A stretch of 43,044 bases of DNA from Modestobacter altitudinis. Its GTDB lineage: Bacteria > Actinomycetota > Actinomycetes > Mycobacteriales > Geodermatophilaceae. The position numbers and the translations under genes were made by a program. The stretch spans positions 1-43,044 of the forward strand of contig NZ_SJEW01000041.1 of NCBI RefSeq assembly GCF_005930475.1, in the 5' to 3' direction. The notes under the pieces are model-generated. The model searched no databases. It was not told the DNA's origin and worked only from the letters and a program-made list of their open reading frames with translations. The first letter of the stretch is position 1; each line of letters begins with the position of its first letter. This document shows positions 6,726 through 43,044 of the stretch, piece after piece.

Positions 6726-8294
6726 ATGACCGACCAGCGCACCGCCCGGTGGCGCGGCATGACGATCGCCGACCAGGTGGCCCGGCATGCCCGGTCGACC
6801 CCCGACGCGACCGCGCTGCGGTTCGCCGGGACCGGCCGCAGCTGTGCCGAGCTCGACGAACGGGTGACCCGGCTGACCGCAGCGCTGGTCGAGCGCGGTG
6901 TGCGGCGCGGTGACCGGGTGGCGGTGCTGACCCTCAACGGGTTGGAGGGCGTCGAGACGTTCCTGGCCGCGGCCCGGCTCGGCGCGATCGCCGTCCCGTT
7001 GAACTTCCGGCTGGTCGCCGACGAGGTCGGCTACGCGCTCTCCGACAGCGGCGCGGCGGCGCTCGTCGTCGACCCGGTGCTGGCCGACACCGCGGCGAAG
7101 GCCCGGGACGCCGCGCCCGAACTGCAGATCGTGCTGACCGTCGGCCCGGAGTACGAGGAGTCGCTGGCCGCCGCCTCGCCTGCCCAGGTAGACCACGCGG
7201 TCGACGATGACGACCCGGTGTTCCTGATGTACACCTCCGGGACGACGGGCAAGCCGAAGGGCGCGGTGCTGTCGCACCGCAACCTGTTGGTCCACACGTT
7301 GAGCCAGGTGACTCACCTGGGCGTGGCCCCCGACGACCGGGTGGGCCTGAGCGGGGCGCCGCTGTTCCACATCGCCGCGGTCTCCGGGATGGTCACGACG
7401 CTGACTGTCGGAGGCACGTTCGTGCTCACCCGGTCCGGCGCGTTCGACCCGGTGGCGACGGTCGACGAACTCGAGCGGGAGCGGGTCTCCAACGCCTTCT
7501 TCGTGCCCGCGCAGTGGCAGGCCATCTGCGCCGTCCCCGGGATCGCCGACCGAGACCTGTCCCCGCTGCGCCGGATCGTCTGGGGAGCCGCACCGGCGTC
7601 GACGACGCTGCTGCGCACGATGATGGCCACCTTCCCGCAGGCCGAGGTGGTCTCCGCGTTCGGCCAGACCGAGTGCTCACCGGTCACCTGCCTGCTGCGC
7701 GGCGAGGACTCGGTGCGCAAGATCGGCTCGGTCGGCACCCCGATGCTCAACGTCGAGGTCCGGGTGGTCGACGACGCGATGGACGACGTCCCGCGGGGCG
7801 AGGTGGGTGAGATCGTCTACCGCTCGCCGATGGTCATGACGGAGTACTGGGGCAAGCCCGAGGCGACCGAGGAGGCCTTCGCCGGGGGCTGGTTCCACTC
7901 CGGGGACCTGGTGCGACAGGACCCCGAGGGCTACTTCTACGTCGTCGACCGCAAGAAGGACATGATCATCACCGGCGGTGAGAACGTGTACTGCGCCGAG
8001 GTCGAGGACGTGCTGGCCGCCCACCCCGGCGTTGCGGAGGTCGCGCTGATCGGCGTGCCGGACACCCGCTACGGCGAGGCGCCGCTGGCCGTCGTCACCC
8101 CGCGCGACCCCGCCGCGCCCCCGACGCCGGCCGAGCTGACCGCCTGGTGCCGGGAGCGGCTGGCGCACTACAAGTGCCCGCGGGAGTGGTCGATCAGCGA
8201 CGCGCTGCCGCGCAACCCGAGCGGCAAGGTGCTCAAGACCGAGCTGCGCACCCTGCACTCGGCCGGCGCCCTGGTCTCCGACCCAGCGGTCTGA
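6726..8294 (+). CDS. AMP-forming acyl-CoA ligase (FadD-like)
   Basis: A 522-residue adenylate-forming enzyme that activates a carboxylic acid with ATP and joins it to CoA. Visible signatures are the P-loop-like YTSGTTGKPKGAVLSH, the AFGQTE motif, the hinge region DLVRQDPEGYFYVVDRKKDM, ITGGENVYCAEVE, and the C-terminal catalytic Lys in NPSGKVLKTEL. Length is typical for medium to long-chain FadD ligases. The ATG has GGGGGAG upstream. It is transcribed away from the acyl-CoA dehydrogenase operon, with 90 bases between the starts, and probably supplies its substrate. The stop is followed six bases later by the left hairpin of the AbiEi/DUF559 cassette. Confidence 0.94.
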   Translation: MTDQRTARWRGMTIADQVARHARSTPDATALRFAGTGRSCAELDERVTRLTAALVERGVRRGDRVAVLTLNGLEGVETFLAAARLGAIAVPLNFRLVADEVGYALSDSGAAALVVDPVLADTAAKARDAAPELQIVLTVGPEYEESLAAASPAQVDHAVDDDDPVFLMYTSGTTGKPKGAVLSHRNLLVHTLSQVTHLGVAPDDRVGLSGAPLFHIAAVSGMVTTLTVGGTFVLTRSGAFDPVATVDELERERVSNAFFVPAQWQAICAVPGIADRDLSPLRRIVWGAAPASTTLLRTMMATFPQAEVVSAFGQTECSPVTCLLRGEDSVRKIGSVGTPMLNVEVRVVDDAMDDVPRGEVGEIVYRSPMVMTEYWGKPEATEEAFAGGWFHSGDLVRQDPEGYFYVVDRKKDMIITGGENVYCAEVEDVLAAHPGVAEVALIGVPDTRYGEAPLAVVTPRDPAAPPTPAELTAWCRERLAHYKCPREWSISDALPRNPSGKVLKTELRTLHSAGALVSDPAV

Positions 8295-8299
8295 CCGTC

Positions 8300-8355
8300 G
8301 ACTGACAGCTCAGCGTGGTCGGCGGGCAGCTGCGACCACGCTCAGCTGCCATTCG
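8300..8355 (+). repeat. left flanking hairpin of AbiEi/DUF559 cassette 1
   Basis: A 56-base imperfect palindrome; the best arms are 8306-8321 and 8333-8348 (15 of 16 paired). It aligns without gaps to the 56 bases at 9274-9329 on the other side of the gene, about 40 of 56 identical by hand count. Differences cluster in the loop and the arms are conserved (shared core TGACAGCTCMGCGTGGWCGG). It may also terminate the upstream ligase gene. Confidence 0.75.
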
Positions 8356-8358
8356 GCG

Positions 8359-8371
8359 GCCTGTGGACGGC
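8359..8371 (+). promoter_or_regulatory. 13-base motif shared by both AbiEi/DUF559 cassettes
   Basis: GCCTGTGGACGGC lies 38 bases before the GTG start. The identical 13 bases lie at 34931-34943, also exactly 38 bases before the GTG of the second cassette. It contains TGTGGAC, which resembles the core of a DnaA box on the reverse strand, but a promoter or recognition role is equally possible. Confidence 0.6.
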
Positions 8372-8409
8372 GCCAGCAGCGACAGTGCCGGAGCCGCCAG
8401 AGTGTCGCG

Positions 8410-9279
8410 GTGCCCCCGGTGCGCCGTCCTGAGCAGCTCCGCGGCCGGGTGTTCCGCGGCAGCACCGCCGTCCGCCGGGGGTGGCTGACCGCGAACCAGC
8501 TGCGCGGACCCGGCTGGCAACGGCTCTTCCCCGACGTCTACGCCGACTCCGCCCTCGAGGTCACCCACCTGCTGCGCGCCCGGACCGCGGCCCGGCTGCT
8601 GCTGCCGCACGCCGTCGTCTCCGGGGCGAGCGCCGCCGTCCTCTGGGGGCTGGACGACCTCGCCGGCCCCGCGGACGACGTGGAGCTGACCGTGCCGCCC
8701 GGCGCTCACCGCGGCGCAGCGCCCGGGGTGCTGGTCCGCCGGCGGGTGCTGCCCGGCGACTGCCTTCGCCCCGTGACAGGGGTGCGGGCGACCGCGCCGG
8801 CCACCACCGCGCTGGAGCTGGCCGCGCGGCTCCCGCTCGACGACGGCGTCGTCCTGCTGGACCGCTTCGTCGCGGCGAAGCTCACCACGCTGACGACGCT
8901 GCGGATGGACGCGGCCGAGCTCACCGGTCGGGGCTGCCGCCGAGCCCGGCAGGCGGCCGCGCTCGCCGACGGGCTGGCCGCCTCACCACAGGAGACCCGG
9001 CTGCGACTGCTGCTGCACCGCTCGCCCCTGCCGACGCCGGTACCCCAGCACGTCGTCCGGCAGCAGGGCCGGTTCGTGGCCCGGCTCGACTTCGCGTGGC
9101 CCGAGCGCCGGGTCGGGTTGGAGTACGAGGGCGCCTGGCACACCACGCGCATCGGCGAGGACCGGCGGCGGATCGAGGCGCTGCAGGCAGCCGGGTGGCG
9201 GGTGCTGTTCGTGACCGCCGCCGACCTGCGCTCCCCCGGCGCGCTGCTGGCCCGGATCTCCGCGGCGCTCGCCGAGTGA
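8410..9279 (+). CDS. AbiEi-like antitoxin domain plus DUF559 nuclease-fold protein
   Basis: A 289-residue protein with two parts. Residues about 18-150 resemble the N-terminal winged helix and following domain of type IV AbiEi antitoxins (VRRGWLTANQLR, WQRLFPDVYA, VSGASAAVLWGL). Residues about 195-289 look like a DUF559/Vsr-like endonuclease fold: LDFAWPERRVGLEYEGAWH gives Asp227, Glu238, Glu240 and His244, then EDRRRIEALQAAGWRVLFVTAADL. A DNA-binding nuclease is inferred; no AbiEii toxin partner is present. The start is a GTG without an obvious ribosome site. Flanking hairpins of 56 bases lie on both sides, and the stop codon is inside the right one. A homologue with a deleted nuclease core sits at 34982. 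Confidence 0.85.
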   Translation: MPPVRRPEQLRGRVFRGSTAVRRGWLTANQLRGPGWQRLFPDVYADSALEVTHLLRARTAARLLLPHAVVSGASAAVLWGLDDLAGPADDVELTVPPGAHRGAAPGVLVRRRVLPGDCLRPVTGVRATAPATTALELAARLPLDDGVVLLDRFVAAKLTTLTTLRMDAAELTGRGCRRARQAAALADGLAASPQETRLRLLLHRSPLPTPVPQHVVRQQGRFVARLDFAWPERRVGLEYEGAWHTTRIGEDRRRIEALQAAGWRVLFVTAADLRSPGALLARISAALAE

Positions 9280-9329
9280 CAGCTCCGCGTGGACGGACGG
9301 GCCTCCCGTCCACGTTGAGCTGTCACTCG
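9274..9329 (+). repeat. right flanking hairpin of AbiEi/DUF559 cassette 1
   Basis: A 56-base palindrome with arms of about 23 bases (GAGTGACAGCTC outer part perfect, two mismatches inside). It is a gapless look-alike of 8300-8355. It includes the stop codon of the nuclease gene in its left edge and ends 7 bases before the stop of the convergent crotonase, so it also works as a terminator for both. Confidence 0.8.
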
Positions 9330-9336
9330 ACGCGGA

Positions 9337-10101
9337 TCAGACGCCCCGCCAGACGGGAGTGCGCTTCTCCGCGAAGGCCCGGGCGCCCTCGAGGGCGTCG
9401 GCGGAGGCGAACACCTGGTCGGCCAGCGCCTGCTGCGCGTCCAGTGCCGCACGGTCGGTCCAGGCCACCGAGGCAGCGATCAGGGCCTTGCTGGCCCGCA
9501 CCGCCAGCGGTCCGTTCGCGGCGACCCGGCTGGCCAGCTGGCGGGCGCCGGCCAGCGCGCCGCCGGGCTCGGTGAGCACGTTGACCAGCCCGAACCGGTG
9601 CGCCTCCTCCGCCGGCAGCGGGTCCCCGGTGAGCGCCATCTCCATCGCCCGCTGGTAGGGCAGTGCCTTGGCCAGCCGCAGCACCCCGCCGCCGGCCGCG
9701 AACAGCCCGCGCTTGACCTCCGGGATGCCGAACCGGGCGTCGCGGGCGGCGACGATCAGGTCCGCGCTCAACGCCAGCTCGCAGCCCCCGGCGAGCGCCC
9801 AGCCCTCGACGGCGGCGATCAGCGGCTTGGCCGGCGGCGCCTCGGTGAGCCCGGCGAACCCGCGACCCTCGATCCGCGGACGCTCGCCGCGGGCGAAGGC
9901 CTTGAGGTCCATCCCGGCGCAGAACGTGCCCCCGGCGCCGGTGAGCACCAGGACGGCGACGTCGTCCCGGGCCTCGAGGTCGTCCAGCGCGGCGGCCAGC
10001 GCCTCGGTGGTCGCCAGGTCGACCGCGTTCCTCGCCGCCGGCCGGTTCAGGGTCAGCACGCCGACCCCGTCGGCCACCTCGGTGAGCACCGGTTCCGTCA
10101 T
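9337..10101 (-). CDS. enoyl-CoA hydratase (crotonase family)
   Basis: A 254-residue crotonase-fold enzyme, expected to hydrate 2-enoyl-CoA. Both oxyanion-hole segments are visible (GTFCAGMDLKAF and EGWALAGGCELALSADLIVA). Unlike the crotonase at 3543, both catalytic glutamates are kept: FGIPEVKRGL and the following RAMEMALTGDP. The C-terminal trimerisation helices include AFAEKRTPVWRG. The ATG has a strong GGAGGACG site eight bases upstream; an in-frame start further up lacks one. It lies downstream of a patatin-like gene on the same strand but a 13-bp hairpin separates them. The length is normal for bacterial EchA proteins. Confidence 0.94.
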   Translation of the reverse strand: MTEPVLTEVADGVGVLTLNRPAARNAVDLATTEALAAALDDLEARDDVAVLVLTGAGGTFCAGMDLKAFARGERPRIEGRGFAGLTEAPPAKPLIAAVEGWALAGGCELALSADLIVAARDARFGIPEVKRGLFAAGGGVLRLAKALPYQRAMEMALTGDPLPAEEAHRFGLVNVLTEPGGALAGARQLASRVAANGPLAVRASKALIAASVAWTDRAALDAQQALADQVFASADALEGARAFAEKRTPVWRGV

Positions 10102-10122: not shown

Positions 10123-10160
10123 GGAGTCCCAGCGCATCGGGAACCGAGCGCTGGGACTCC
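10123..10160 (-). terminator. hairpin terminator of the patatin-like gene
   Basis: Perfect 13-bp arms (GGAGTCCCAGCGC at 10123-10135, complement at 10148-10160) with a 12-base loop. It starts three bases after the patatin-like stop and lies upstream of the crotonase ribosome binding site. Confidence 0.8.
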
Positions 10161-34870: not shown

Positions 34871-34925
34871 GACAACTGCGATCTCGCGGCTTCCCACGCG
34901 GAGGAGCCCCGAGATCGCAGCAGTC
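34871..34925 (+). repeat. left flanking hairpin of AbiEi/DUF559 cassette 2
   Basis: A 55-base palindrome; core arms 34876-34891 and 34905-34920 pair at 15 of 16 positions (CTGCGATCTCGCGGCT). It aligns without gaps to 35601-35655 beyond the gene, about 37 of 55 identical by hand count, with arms better kept than the loop. It lies 21 bases upstream of the smpB start. Confidence 0.75.
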
Positions 34926-34930
34926 ACGGC

Positions 34931-34943
34931 GCCTGTGGACGGC
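34931..34943 (+). promoter_or_regulatory. 13-base motif shared by both AbiEi/DUF559 cassettes
   Basis: GCCTGTGGACGGC, identical to 8359-8371, again 38 bases before the GTG start and a few bases after the left hairpin. Confidence 0.6.
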
Positions 34944-34981
34944 CGCAGCGCACACGGACCCCGGGACGGCACCCTCCCCCG

Positions 34982-35602
34982 GTGCCCCGCCGTCGTGCGC
35001 CGTCCCAACTCACTGGTCCGGCGACCCGCCCCGCCGCCCTGGCCGGAGACATCTCGGACTGGCAACTCCGTCATCCCGACGTCGTCCGGCTGTCCCGGGA
35101 CACCTACCTCCCCCGGGCTCAGGACGCCGACCTGCGCACCCGCTTGCCGGCGGTGCTGATGACTGCGCCACCCGGTGCCGTGGTCAGCCACCAGACGGCG
35201 GCGGCGCTGTGGCGGGTGGAGATCCCGCTCGCCGCCCCCGACCCGCTCGCCCATCTGACCGTCCCGGCCGCGTCGAAGGCCCGCAACCGTGCCGACCGGC
35301 GGTTGCACCGGGCTCAGTTGTCTCAGCAGGACGTCGAGCGGCGCTGGGGCATGCCGGTGACCACCCCCGCCCGCACGTGGCGCGACTTGGCCGCTGTGTT
35401 GGAGCCGGCCGCGCTGCCCGCCTGCCCCCACGCCTCGCAGGCTCGCCGCGGGCCCCTGCAGGCGGGCCGAAGGAGTCAGGTCGACCGGCGGCAGAACCGG
35501 CTCGTGTTGGAGGGCTGGATCGTCCTGCGGTTCAGCTCGGCCGACGTCCTGGGCCGGCCGGACGAGGTGATCGCCGCCGTGCGCCGCGCTCTCGGGCTGT
35601 GA
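34982..35602 (+). CDS. AbiEi-like protein with deleted DUF559 core
   Basis: A 206-residue homologue of the 289-residue protein at 8410. The N-terminal AbiEi-like half is kept (SDWQLRHPDVVRLSRDTYLP, GAVVSHQTAAALWRV, TTPARTWRDLAAVL). At the C-terminus only the last DUF559 piece remains (DRRQNRLVLEGWIVLRFSSADV and a final helix). Residues matching 141-251 of the longer protein, including all candidate nuclease residues, are replaced by 27 unrelated residues encoded by a palindrome-rich stretch. The frame stays open to the normal end, so it is either a decayed copy or a DNA-binding-only derivative. GTG start. It runs against the ftsX-smpB genes around it. The stop is at the edge of the right hairpin. 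Confidence 0.7.
   Translation: MPRRRAPSQLTGPATRPAALAGDISDWQLRHPDVVRLSRDTYLPRAQDADLRTRLPAVLMTAPPGAVVSHQTAAALWRVEIPLAAPDPLAHLTVPAASKARNRADRRLHRAQLSQQDVERRWGMPVTTPARTWRDLAAVLEPAALPACPHASQARRGPLQAGRRSQVDRRQNRLVLEGWIVLRFSSADVLGRPDEVIAAVRRALGL
35416..35467. repeat. inverted repeat at the nuclease-core deletion
   Basis: GCCCGCCTGC (35416-35425) pairs perfectly with 35458-35467, and inner short palindromes (GCCTCGCAGGC) lie between. It coincides with the 27-residue stretch that replaces the DUF559 core in cassette 2, so it may be an inserted palindromic element or the scar of the deletion. Confidence 0.5.
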
Positions 35603-35655
35603 GTTCTGCGGTCTCGGGCTCCCCCCGACGAGGAAGCCCCGAGACCGCAGAACTC
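35601..35655 (+). repeat. right flanking hairpin of AbiEi/DUF559 cassette 2
   Basis: Perfect 18-base arms (35601-35618 with 35638-35655; GAGTTCTGCGGTCTCGGG) and a 19-base loop. The gene's TGA stop is at 35600-35602, on its first bases. It ends 8 bases before the ftsX stop and can also terminate ftsX transcription. Confidence 0.82.
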
Positions 35656-35663
35656 AGCGGCGG

Positions 35664-42863: not shown

Positions 42864-43043
42864 TCAGCCGAAGAGGTTCCCGCCGCCGGCGACCCAGGTC
42901 AGCACCACCATCGCCACGAACAGCACGACGATGGAGACGACCACGACCACCGGGGTCATCCAGGCGTGCGACTGGAACAGCCCCACCTTCTCGCCGGCCT
43001 CGCCGCGGTCCTGCTCCGCTGCTGGGCCGGCGAGAAGGTGGGG
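42864..43043 (-). CDS. single-helix membrane protein paralogue, 5'-truncated
   Basis: C-terminal 59 codons of a gene running off the window. It shows EKVGLFQSHAWMT, a hydrophobic helix (VVVVVSIVVLFVAMVVLTW) and VAGGGNLFG before the stop. This matches VGLFGRYSWLT, VFVAMIVLTW and AAGG in the neighbouring gene. The first residues visible here (PHLLAGPAA) come from the right arm of a perfect inverted repeat at the window end and may be an assembly artefact. Confidence 0.65.
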   Translation of the reverse strand, partial: PHLLAGPAAEQDRGEAGEKVGLFQSHAWMTPVVVVVSIVVLFVAMVVLTWVAGGGNLFG

Positions 43044-43044
43044 C
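42980..43044. repeat. perfect 20-bp inverted repeat at the window end
   Basis: Bases 42980-42999 (GCCCCACCTTCTCGCCGGCC) are the exact reverse complement of 43025-43044, with a 25-base spacer. The right arm stops at the last base of the window. It lies inside coding sequence. Confidence 0.85.

Follow-up and report, generated by a model that had tools for sequence, protein, structure and literature searches.

A DUF559/AbiEi-like nuclease gene bounded by matched palindromes in Modestobacter altitudinis and its relatives

Among described systems, the closest to the one analyzed here are the REPtrons, in which the gene for a nuclease, the REP-associated tyrosine transposase (RAYT, also named TnpAREP; REP, repetitive extragenic palindrome), is located between two palindromes. 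In the available sections of the corresponding papers, genes and palindromes of REPtrons co-vary, palindromes form solo and paired copies, their copy number correlates with the gene, and the genes are single and resident (PMC2817692; PMC3116915; PMC3733652). These features of layout and population are shared by a family of genes represented on contig NZ_SJEW01000041.1 of M. altitudinis (positions 1 to 43,044, 43,044 nucleotides; herein referred to as the window), where a gene for a predicted protein with an AbiEi-like part and an EDxHD/Vsr (DUF559) nuclease part lies between two palindromes. With a probability of roughly 0.62, the gene and both palindromes function together as a single unit, in which a dimeric nuclease would act on its own palindromes and help to spread them. 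The unit consists of the following features:

8296 to 8358, no strand: upstream palindrome, a direct and inverted repeat with 9270 to 9332, DNA fold z -3.8 (8300 to 8355 in the initial annotation of this DNA)
8362 to 8368, plus strand: TGTGGAC, immediately 3' of the upstream palindrome; no other sequence of the units is as constant
8398 to 8403, plus strand: -10-like CAGAGT, 6 nt before the GTG start codon, consensus xAxxxT
8410 to 9279, plus strand: gene for the AbiEi-like and EDxHD/Vsr (DUF559) protein, 289 amino acids, GTG start
9270 to 9332, no strand: downstream palindrome with the stop codon 9277 to 9279 inside (9274 to 9329 in the initial annotation)

Both palindromes have 27-nt arms, which are 85% complementary with an 11-nt spacer upstream (about 8295-8359) and 89% complementary with a 9-nt spacer downstream. 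Over 63 nt, the two are 71% identical in direct and 78% identical in inverted register. In single-stranded DNA folding, the z-scores were -3.8 for the upstream and -6.9 for the downstream palindrome, and none of 200 shuffles was as good for either. The hairpin pair reported by the initial annotation is therefore real, and its layout was confirmed as well: the gene's TGA (9277-9279) sits within the downstream palindrome, and gaps of 5 and 7 nt separate the unit from the stop codons of an AMP-binding ligase gene (8292-8294) and a convergent enoyl-CoA hydratase gene (9337-9339), respectively. Between these two genes, only the two palindromes and the single gene are found. The exact arm GACAGCTCNGCGTGG has no copy in this genome beyond the two window palindromes.

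For the analysis of relatives, the 220 nt before each gene were compared with the 150 nt around its end. The genus set comprised the 79 higher-scoring places from 20 Modestobacter genomes, seven lower-scoring genus places being counted with a wider set of 27 loci; 77 of the 79 were usable, as L139 and L142 had too little flank. A match with a score above 22 in either orientation was found at 71 of the 77 loci and in 90 of 855 random placements, which had identical geometry, came from the same DNA and were counted like for like in orientation. For the direct orientation alone the numbers were 67 of 77 and 50 of 855, and for scores above 30 they were 58 of 77 and 1 of 855. At 68 of the 77 loci, the gene's own flanks matched better than 99% of the mismatched flanks of the same genome, and the observed sum was not reached in any of 10,000 permutations within genomes. 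Matched pairing thus exceeds chance, with a variable orientation of the pairs (27 direct, 31 inverted, 13 tied).

The same pairing was found at greater distances. Among 80 family loci from named records, nearly all from Geodermatophilaceae (Klenkia, Geodermatophilus, Blastococcus, Goekera, Modestobacter) plus one from Catenuloplanes and overlapping in part with the same Modestobacter genomes, 58 had a match, compared with 6% of mismatched pairs. In the wider 27 loci (genus and order), 18 matched with a score above 22, including L064, which resembles GC-rich chance. In the class sample (28 of 30 loci scored; L390, with no usable flank, is a miss, and L374 duplicates L209), 22 of the 28 loci scored above the 95th percentile of mismatched pairs, 14 of them also above the 99th. 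The sister genes L138, L141, and L128 carry short arrays of GCGCTTTCGCGCG-like units at both sides and no single palindromes. Most copies of the gene therefore have matched palindromes at both edges, far more often than random placements, as the initial annotation had expected of relatives, and the plan is far wider than that annotation could show. Ordinary terminators, alike by chance or via gene conversion, are a very improbable explanation of this pattern. It is true that the palindromes immediately follow stop codons and that convergent genes of this genus often have stem-loops between them; however, a score above 30 is almost confined to the units, the partners are copy-specific, and the pattern recurs across the class, so that the random-placement and partner-shuffle controls both disfavor this candidate.

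Specificity is evident at the level of single copies. Sister genes of one genome have differing palindromes, for example GAGTGACAGCTCCGCG (window), GAGTGTGCGCTGGTCGTC, GTGCAGCTACCGGGC, and GGGGCCATGTTGGCCAACATGGCCCC. For nine orthologues of the window unit, the likeness of palindromes within a locus was 0.88, compared with 0.77 and 0.79 for the cross-species counterparts; 3 of 20,000 permutations were as high, and the own partner was the best one in 6 of the 9. Among 22 window-type palindromes, hand-picked from 12 loci, 92.7% of cells pair, and double-sided changes number 56 versus 20.7 in shuffles. Sliding the partner lowers pairing to 30-42%, a comparison biased against the slid versions, since the window palindrome itself supplied the structure under test. 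Sequence changes thus preserve the dyad of the palindromes, and the co-variation points to recognition of each palindrome by its cognate protein.

Some of these palindrome families are also dispersed across the genomes. Three short-core families were searched in 23 genus genomes, with counts that include gene flanks; reversed control patterns gave zero in every genome. Copies of GGCCATGTTNNNNAACATGGCC were found in G016 (51), G006 (40), G000 (17), G012 (11), G007 (3), and G010 (2), and in none of the 17 other genomes. AAATGGCCATTT with its flanks was most frequent in G001 (26), G008 (21), G003 (20), G017 (17), and G002 (16), followed by G016 (5) and G004 (4), with 0-2 copies elsewhere. The third family, TTTCGGCGCCGAAA, was found in G017 (26), G006 (20), G007 (19), G002 (14), G000 and G003 (6 each), and G014 (5), the rest having none. 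Of the cells of this table with at least 10 copies, 11 of 13 belong to a genome whose gene carries the cognate palindrome, versus 4 of 56 other cells (Fisher 5e-8). Cognate here means a palindrome at both gene ends, except for AAATGGCCATTT in G002, where it is at the downstream end only.

As far as listed, the variant bases of the solo copies agree with the cognate gene. Thus, all listed copies in G000 and G006 have a GGCC core, 10 of the 11 in G012 have CGCG, CGCC or GGCG (the G012 gene carries CGCG and CGCC), and four listed G002 copies have GCTTT. Paired copies, which resemble REPIN doublets, include six pairs in G006 (40 copies) with spacings of 52-55 nt, and others spaced by 34 nt in G017 and by 24 nt in G007. 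The window family itself is low-copy, and the association with gene presence was tested on the three other families. Its strict two-arm matches, gene flanks included, number 5 in G016, 4 each in G008, G005, and G018, 3 in G001, 2 each in G007 and G013, and 1 each in G021 and G017, with none in 14 other genomes including G000. Judging by sequence, one match in G001 and one in G005 seem to be unrelated.

The window protein matches Pfam DUF559 with 20.6 bits, which equals the cut-off, and AbiEi_1 with 18.9 bits, which is under the cut-off of 22.2. The best structural match of the modelled protein is the homing endonuclease I-Bth0305I, and its residues align with the E, D, H, and D of EDxHD nucleases; these catalytic residues are conserved in the family. 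According to the structure model, the protein is an AbiEi-like part joined to an EDxHD/Vsr nuclease, as the initial annotation had proposed. A Pfam scan of 84 members at E 0.01 gave DUF559, MTES_1575, AbiEi_1, and DUF2726 only, with no Y1/HUH tyrosine transposase. No HUH transposase is among the 50 structural matches listed, an absence that holds for this list only. In PADLOC the protein had weak AbiEi, weak Vsr, and weak ZorE matches, and a defense label was not adopted. The family has nine members in this genome at E 0.001, including the window gene, and a tenth, broken member, also in the window, was added by a later search. At E 1e-15, matches were found in 175 of 246 sampled class genomes. 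The protein alignment was made without L100, L113, and L124 (split reading frames) and, by choice, without L085, L095, L120, and L142.

Several known proteins share parts of this architecture. EDxHD (Vsr-like) homing endonucleases such as I-Bth0305I have the nuclease fold and the aligned residues in common with the window protein; in contrast to them, it has an AbiEi-like DNA-binding part and its own flanking palindromes, and no intron or intein was seen. Unlike the AbiEi antitoxins of type IV AbiE systems, it is fused to a nuclease and, in agreement with the initial annotation, has no toxin gene (AbiEii) beside it: both adjacent genes are metabolic. Compared to Vsr very-short-patch-repair endonucleases and DUF559 proteins, it has an extra DNA-binding part, and its adjacent genes are not methylases. 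In the proposed mechanism, the AbiEi-like part would read the dyad-symmetric palindrome as double-stranded DNA, probably as a dimer, and the EDxHD/Vsr nuclease would cut or nick at the palindrome. Over evolutionary time, such cleavage may cause copies of the palindrome to arise at other intergenic sites, while the gene would stay mostly resident.

The promoter side of the units is also conserved. TGTGGAY was found at most 110 nt before the match start at 77 of 78 genus loci, compared to 7 of 3726 control windows, and it follows the upstream palindrome at 60 of the 62 loci where both could be placed. It is present upstream at 72 of the 80 family loci, the downstream flanks having it at 1 of 80 and 0 of 78. 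A -10-like xAxxxT (A in 91%, T in 92%) begins 36 nt after TGTGGAY, with the start codon six nt further on; a sigma-70 scan gave no match. In its reverse complement, TGTGGAC is similar to an actinobacterial DnaA box. This arrangement suggests a leaderless transcript that would leave the upstream palindrome untranscribed, in which case the palindrome would act as DNA. With the upstream palindrome located ahead of the promoter-like element, an element working at the RNA level is disfavored. In Rfam, the inverted repeat had only two matches, both to plant microRNAs and below threshold, which were judged to be chance.

AbiEi antitoxins bind inverted repeats at their own promoters. The palindromes could accordingly be an operator and a terminator, the AbiEi-like part autoregulating the gene via the upstream palindrome, the downstream one ending transcription, and the nuclease doing another job, for example in defense. 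The weak PADLOC AbiEi matches, the position of the palindromes at the gene ends, and the conserved TGTGGAC and -10-like element after the upstream palindrome speak for this possibility, which we nevertheless regard as unlikely. It gives no reason for a 3' palindrome that copies the 5' one and changes along with it in each species, and it does not explain the same palindromes beside unrelated genes. In a T-tract terminator scan, neither window stem had a T tract after it, although actinobacterial terminators often lack one.

The initial annotation had also proposed a discrete, possibly mobile cassette that related strains would cleanly lack; for this unit, free mobility is not supported by the data. 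Of 17 genus genomes with an orthologue of the hydratase gene, 11 have the window gene at a distance of at most 1.5 kb from it. At the window site, the gene is split in G013 and G021, G003 has a different palindrome, and in G014, G015, G019, and G002 the site is arranged differently or the contig ends (as in G002). A clean absence was found only in G011, a 70% complete draft, where the ligase and hydratase genes adjoin with neither the window gene nor a palindrome between them. Given the shared location and the lone clean empty site, the gene resembles a resident one, and we regard the window unit as old at its site and mostly resident, not freely mobile. RAYT genes are likewise described as residents in the available part of PMC3116915. 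What stands of the earlier interpretation, with its analogy to REP/RAYT elements or homing nucleases, is the association of nuclease and palindromes, seen in the matched flanks of relatives and in the homing-type nuclease of the structure model; free mobility of the window unit is not supported.

It is the solo palindromes of a sister family, not the window unit, that change quickly between relatives. Genomes G000 and G010 are close (93-98% identity at 12 of 14 flank pieces), and for 13 of 14 first-family solo sites in G000 a comparison was possible, L304 being left out because of a contig end in G010. Nine of these sites are absent or replaced in G010; one of the nine differs cleanly by 27 nt, and three hold other palindromes. 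Four sites are common to both genomes, three of them decayed in G010. The G010 orthologue of the cognate gene on contig C107 is at the same place, with roughly residues 98-236, and hence the nuclease core, missing. Decay is evident in the upstream palindrome of this orthologue, and a search that allowed up to five changes gave no downstream palindrome.

These observations bear on a further alternative, a homing element. Here the palindrome would be the cleavage site, the gene would copy itself into alleles with one palindrome, the flanking pair would be the insertion footprint, and solo palindromes would be targets rather than products. A homing endonuclease is indeed the best structural match, the gene is flanked by two homologous palindromes, and solo window-type palindromes are located beside the same hydratase gene in six relatives. 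However, the only clean empty site (G011) has no palindrome, the solo palindromes themselves vary in presence between G000 and G010, and, among the gene copies retrieved, genomes with dozens of palindromes of one family had a single gene with that flank. We therefore consider homing improbable, at about the level of the operator and terminator explanation.

Three further features of the window belong to a second, decayed unit, and one is a solo palindrome:

34876 to 34920, no strand: upstream palindrome of the second unit, of a different family from that of the window unit
34982 to 35602, plus strand: broken AbiEi-DUF559 gene of the second unit, nuclease core missing
35600 to 35656, no strand: downstream palindrome of the second unit, overlapping the gene's stop codon
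31515 to 31558, no strand: solo palindrome of the sister family with a gene on contig C107, core GGCCATGTTGGCCAGCATGGCC, one change from the exact pattern

The second unit (34876-35656) encloses TGTGGAC and has smpB and ftsX as neighbors. Its reading frame matches residues 1-147 and 255-292 of a relative in G016; the segment equivalent to residues 148-254, which includes the nuclease core, is missing, and no Pfam match is left. Relatives with matched flanks were found in G016, G009, and G020 (L202, L203, L204), with a partial match in G012 (L207). Together with the C107 orthologue in G010, this makes two different losses of the nuclease core. The solo palindrome lies between convergent MFS-like and GNAT-like genes (named by inspection). 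At the orthologous place in 14 other genomes, the same family was found in G006 only; G007, G010, and G014 have other long palindromes, and ten further genomes have other stem-loops by eye.

Two side observations concern other repeats. A palindrome, GGAGTCCCAGCGC...GCGCTGGGACTCC, is located at 10123-10160, before the hydratase gene; it may belong to another dispersed family, since similar palindromes were found at the same place in G007 and at the empty window site of G003. At 42980-43044, right at the contig end, a 29-nt inverted repeat with 7 nt between its arms is possibly a fold-back assembly artefact.

Several results weigh against a nuclease that spreads its own palindromes. No clear match was found at 22 of 80 family, 9 of 27 wider, and 6 of 28 class loci, and in this DNA, which is rich in GC and in hairpins, 6-11% of random placements attain the lower score. 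The threshold of 10 copies was set after the counts had been seen, and the genomes are not independent, kinship inflating the association tests. No gene with the corresponding flank was found for the 51 CATG-type (GGCCATGTTNNNNAACATGGCC family) palindromes in G016 or the 19 TTTCGGCGCCGAAA palindromes in G007; perhaps the genes of these abundant families were lost or missed. This genome has no strict two-arm solo copy of the window palindrome, a pattern that the window's own imperfect palindromes also fail. In the closest orthologue of the window unit (G010, 91%), the reading frame is open and the upstream palindrome is lost. The nine site differences between G000 and G010 are not polarized as gain or loss, and the C107 case in G010 is a single comparison and a correlation only. 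Finally, the AbiEi-like part matches at the fold level with a large rmsd (root-mean-square deviation).

Like REP/RAYT systems, the units have two cognate palindromes, co-variation of gene and palindrome, and palindrome abundance in genomes with a cognate gene (with G016 and G007 as exceptions). They differ in having an unrelated enzyme, the AbiEi-EDxHD protein, instead of a Y1/HUH tyrosine transposase, in palindromes of about 55-60 nt for the window type, and in having no GTAG or GTGG head at the palindrome foot. GTAG is absent from both strands of 8296-8358 and 9270-9332, while GTGG occurs within the window stems, not at the foot, and is missing from the G005, G001, and G018 rows. CGTC is present at the outer feet of the window palindromes (8296-8299 and, inverted, 9329-9332) and at the G007 upstream palindrome; it is not kept in several orthologues, being absent from the feet of those in G005 and G018. 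CGTC-tagged REPs, which have no known transposase in the available part of PMC3733652, carry CGTC at one end. In the present reading, the system would work like REP/RAYT; it lacks the enzyme that defines REP/RAYT systems and therefore does not belong to them.

In the same portion of that paper, GTAG repeats are assigned to Proteobacteria, Cyanobacteria, Chloroflexi, and the PVC group, and the string 'actinobacteri' does not occur. RepRanger gives REP counts for three Actinomycetota genomes, and neither RAYT nor nuclease appears in its available text (PMC12306157). No literature linking such a protein to palindromes was found among the PMC papers searched, a set with neither subscription papers nor preprints; of those containing DUF559, none seemed to be on repeats as judged by title and start of abstract. 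We give even odds to a broader proposal, namely that a REP-type system evolved a second time, independently and without an HUH transposase. In a large actinobacterial AbiEi-EDxHD family, many members would recognize an intergenic palindrome of their own and increase its copy number, sister genes rapidly diverging in sequence specificity.

The matched and scattered palindromes suggest that short DNA repeats may spread by a route that has not been studied. For REP palindromes, the question of their spread has long been open and has been tied to one enzyme family, the RAYTs. If the present reading is true, a convergent, metal-dependent system would make 'nuclease plus own palindrome' a general life style of short repeats. 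It would also point to a function of a gene family that is very widespread and now named DUF559/AbiEi-like only, and it would provide many natural protein-palindrome pairs for reading the DNA-recognition code of long dyad targets.
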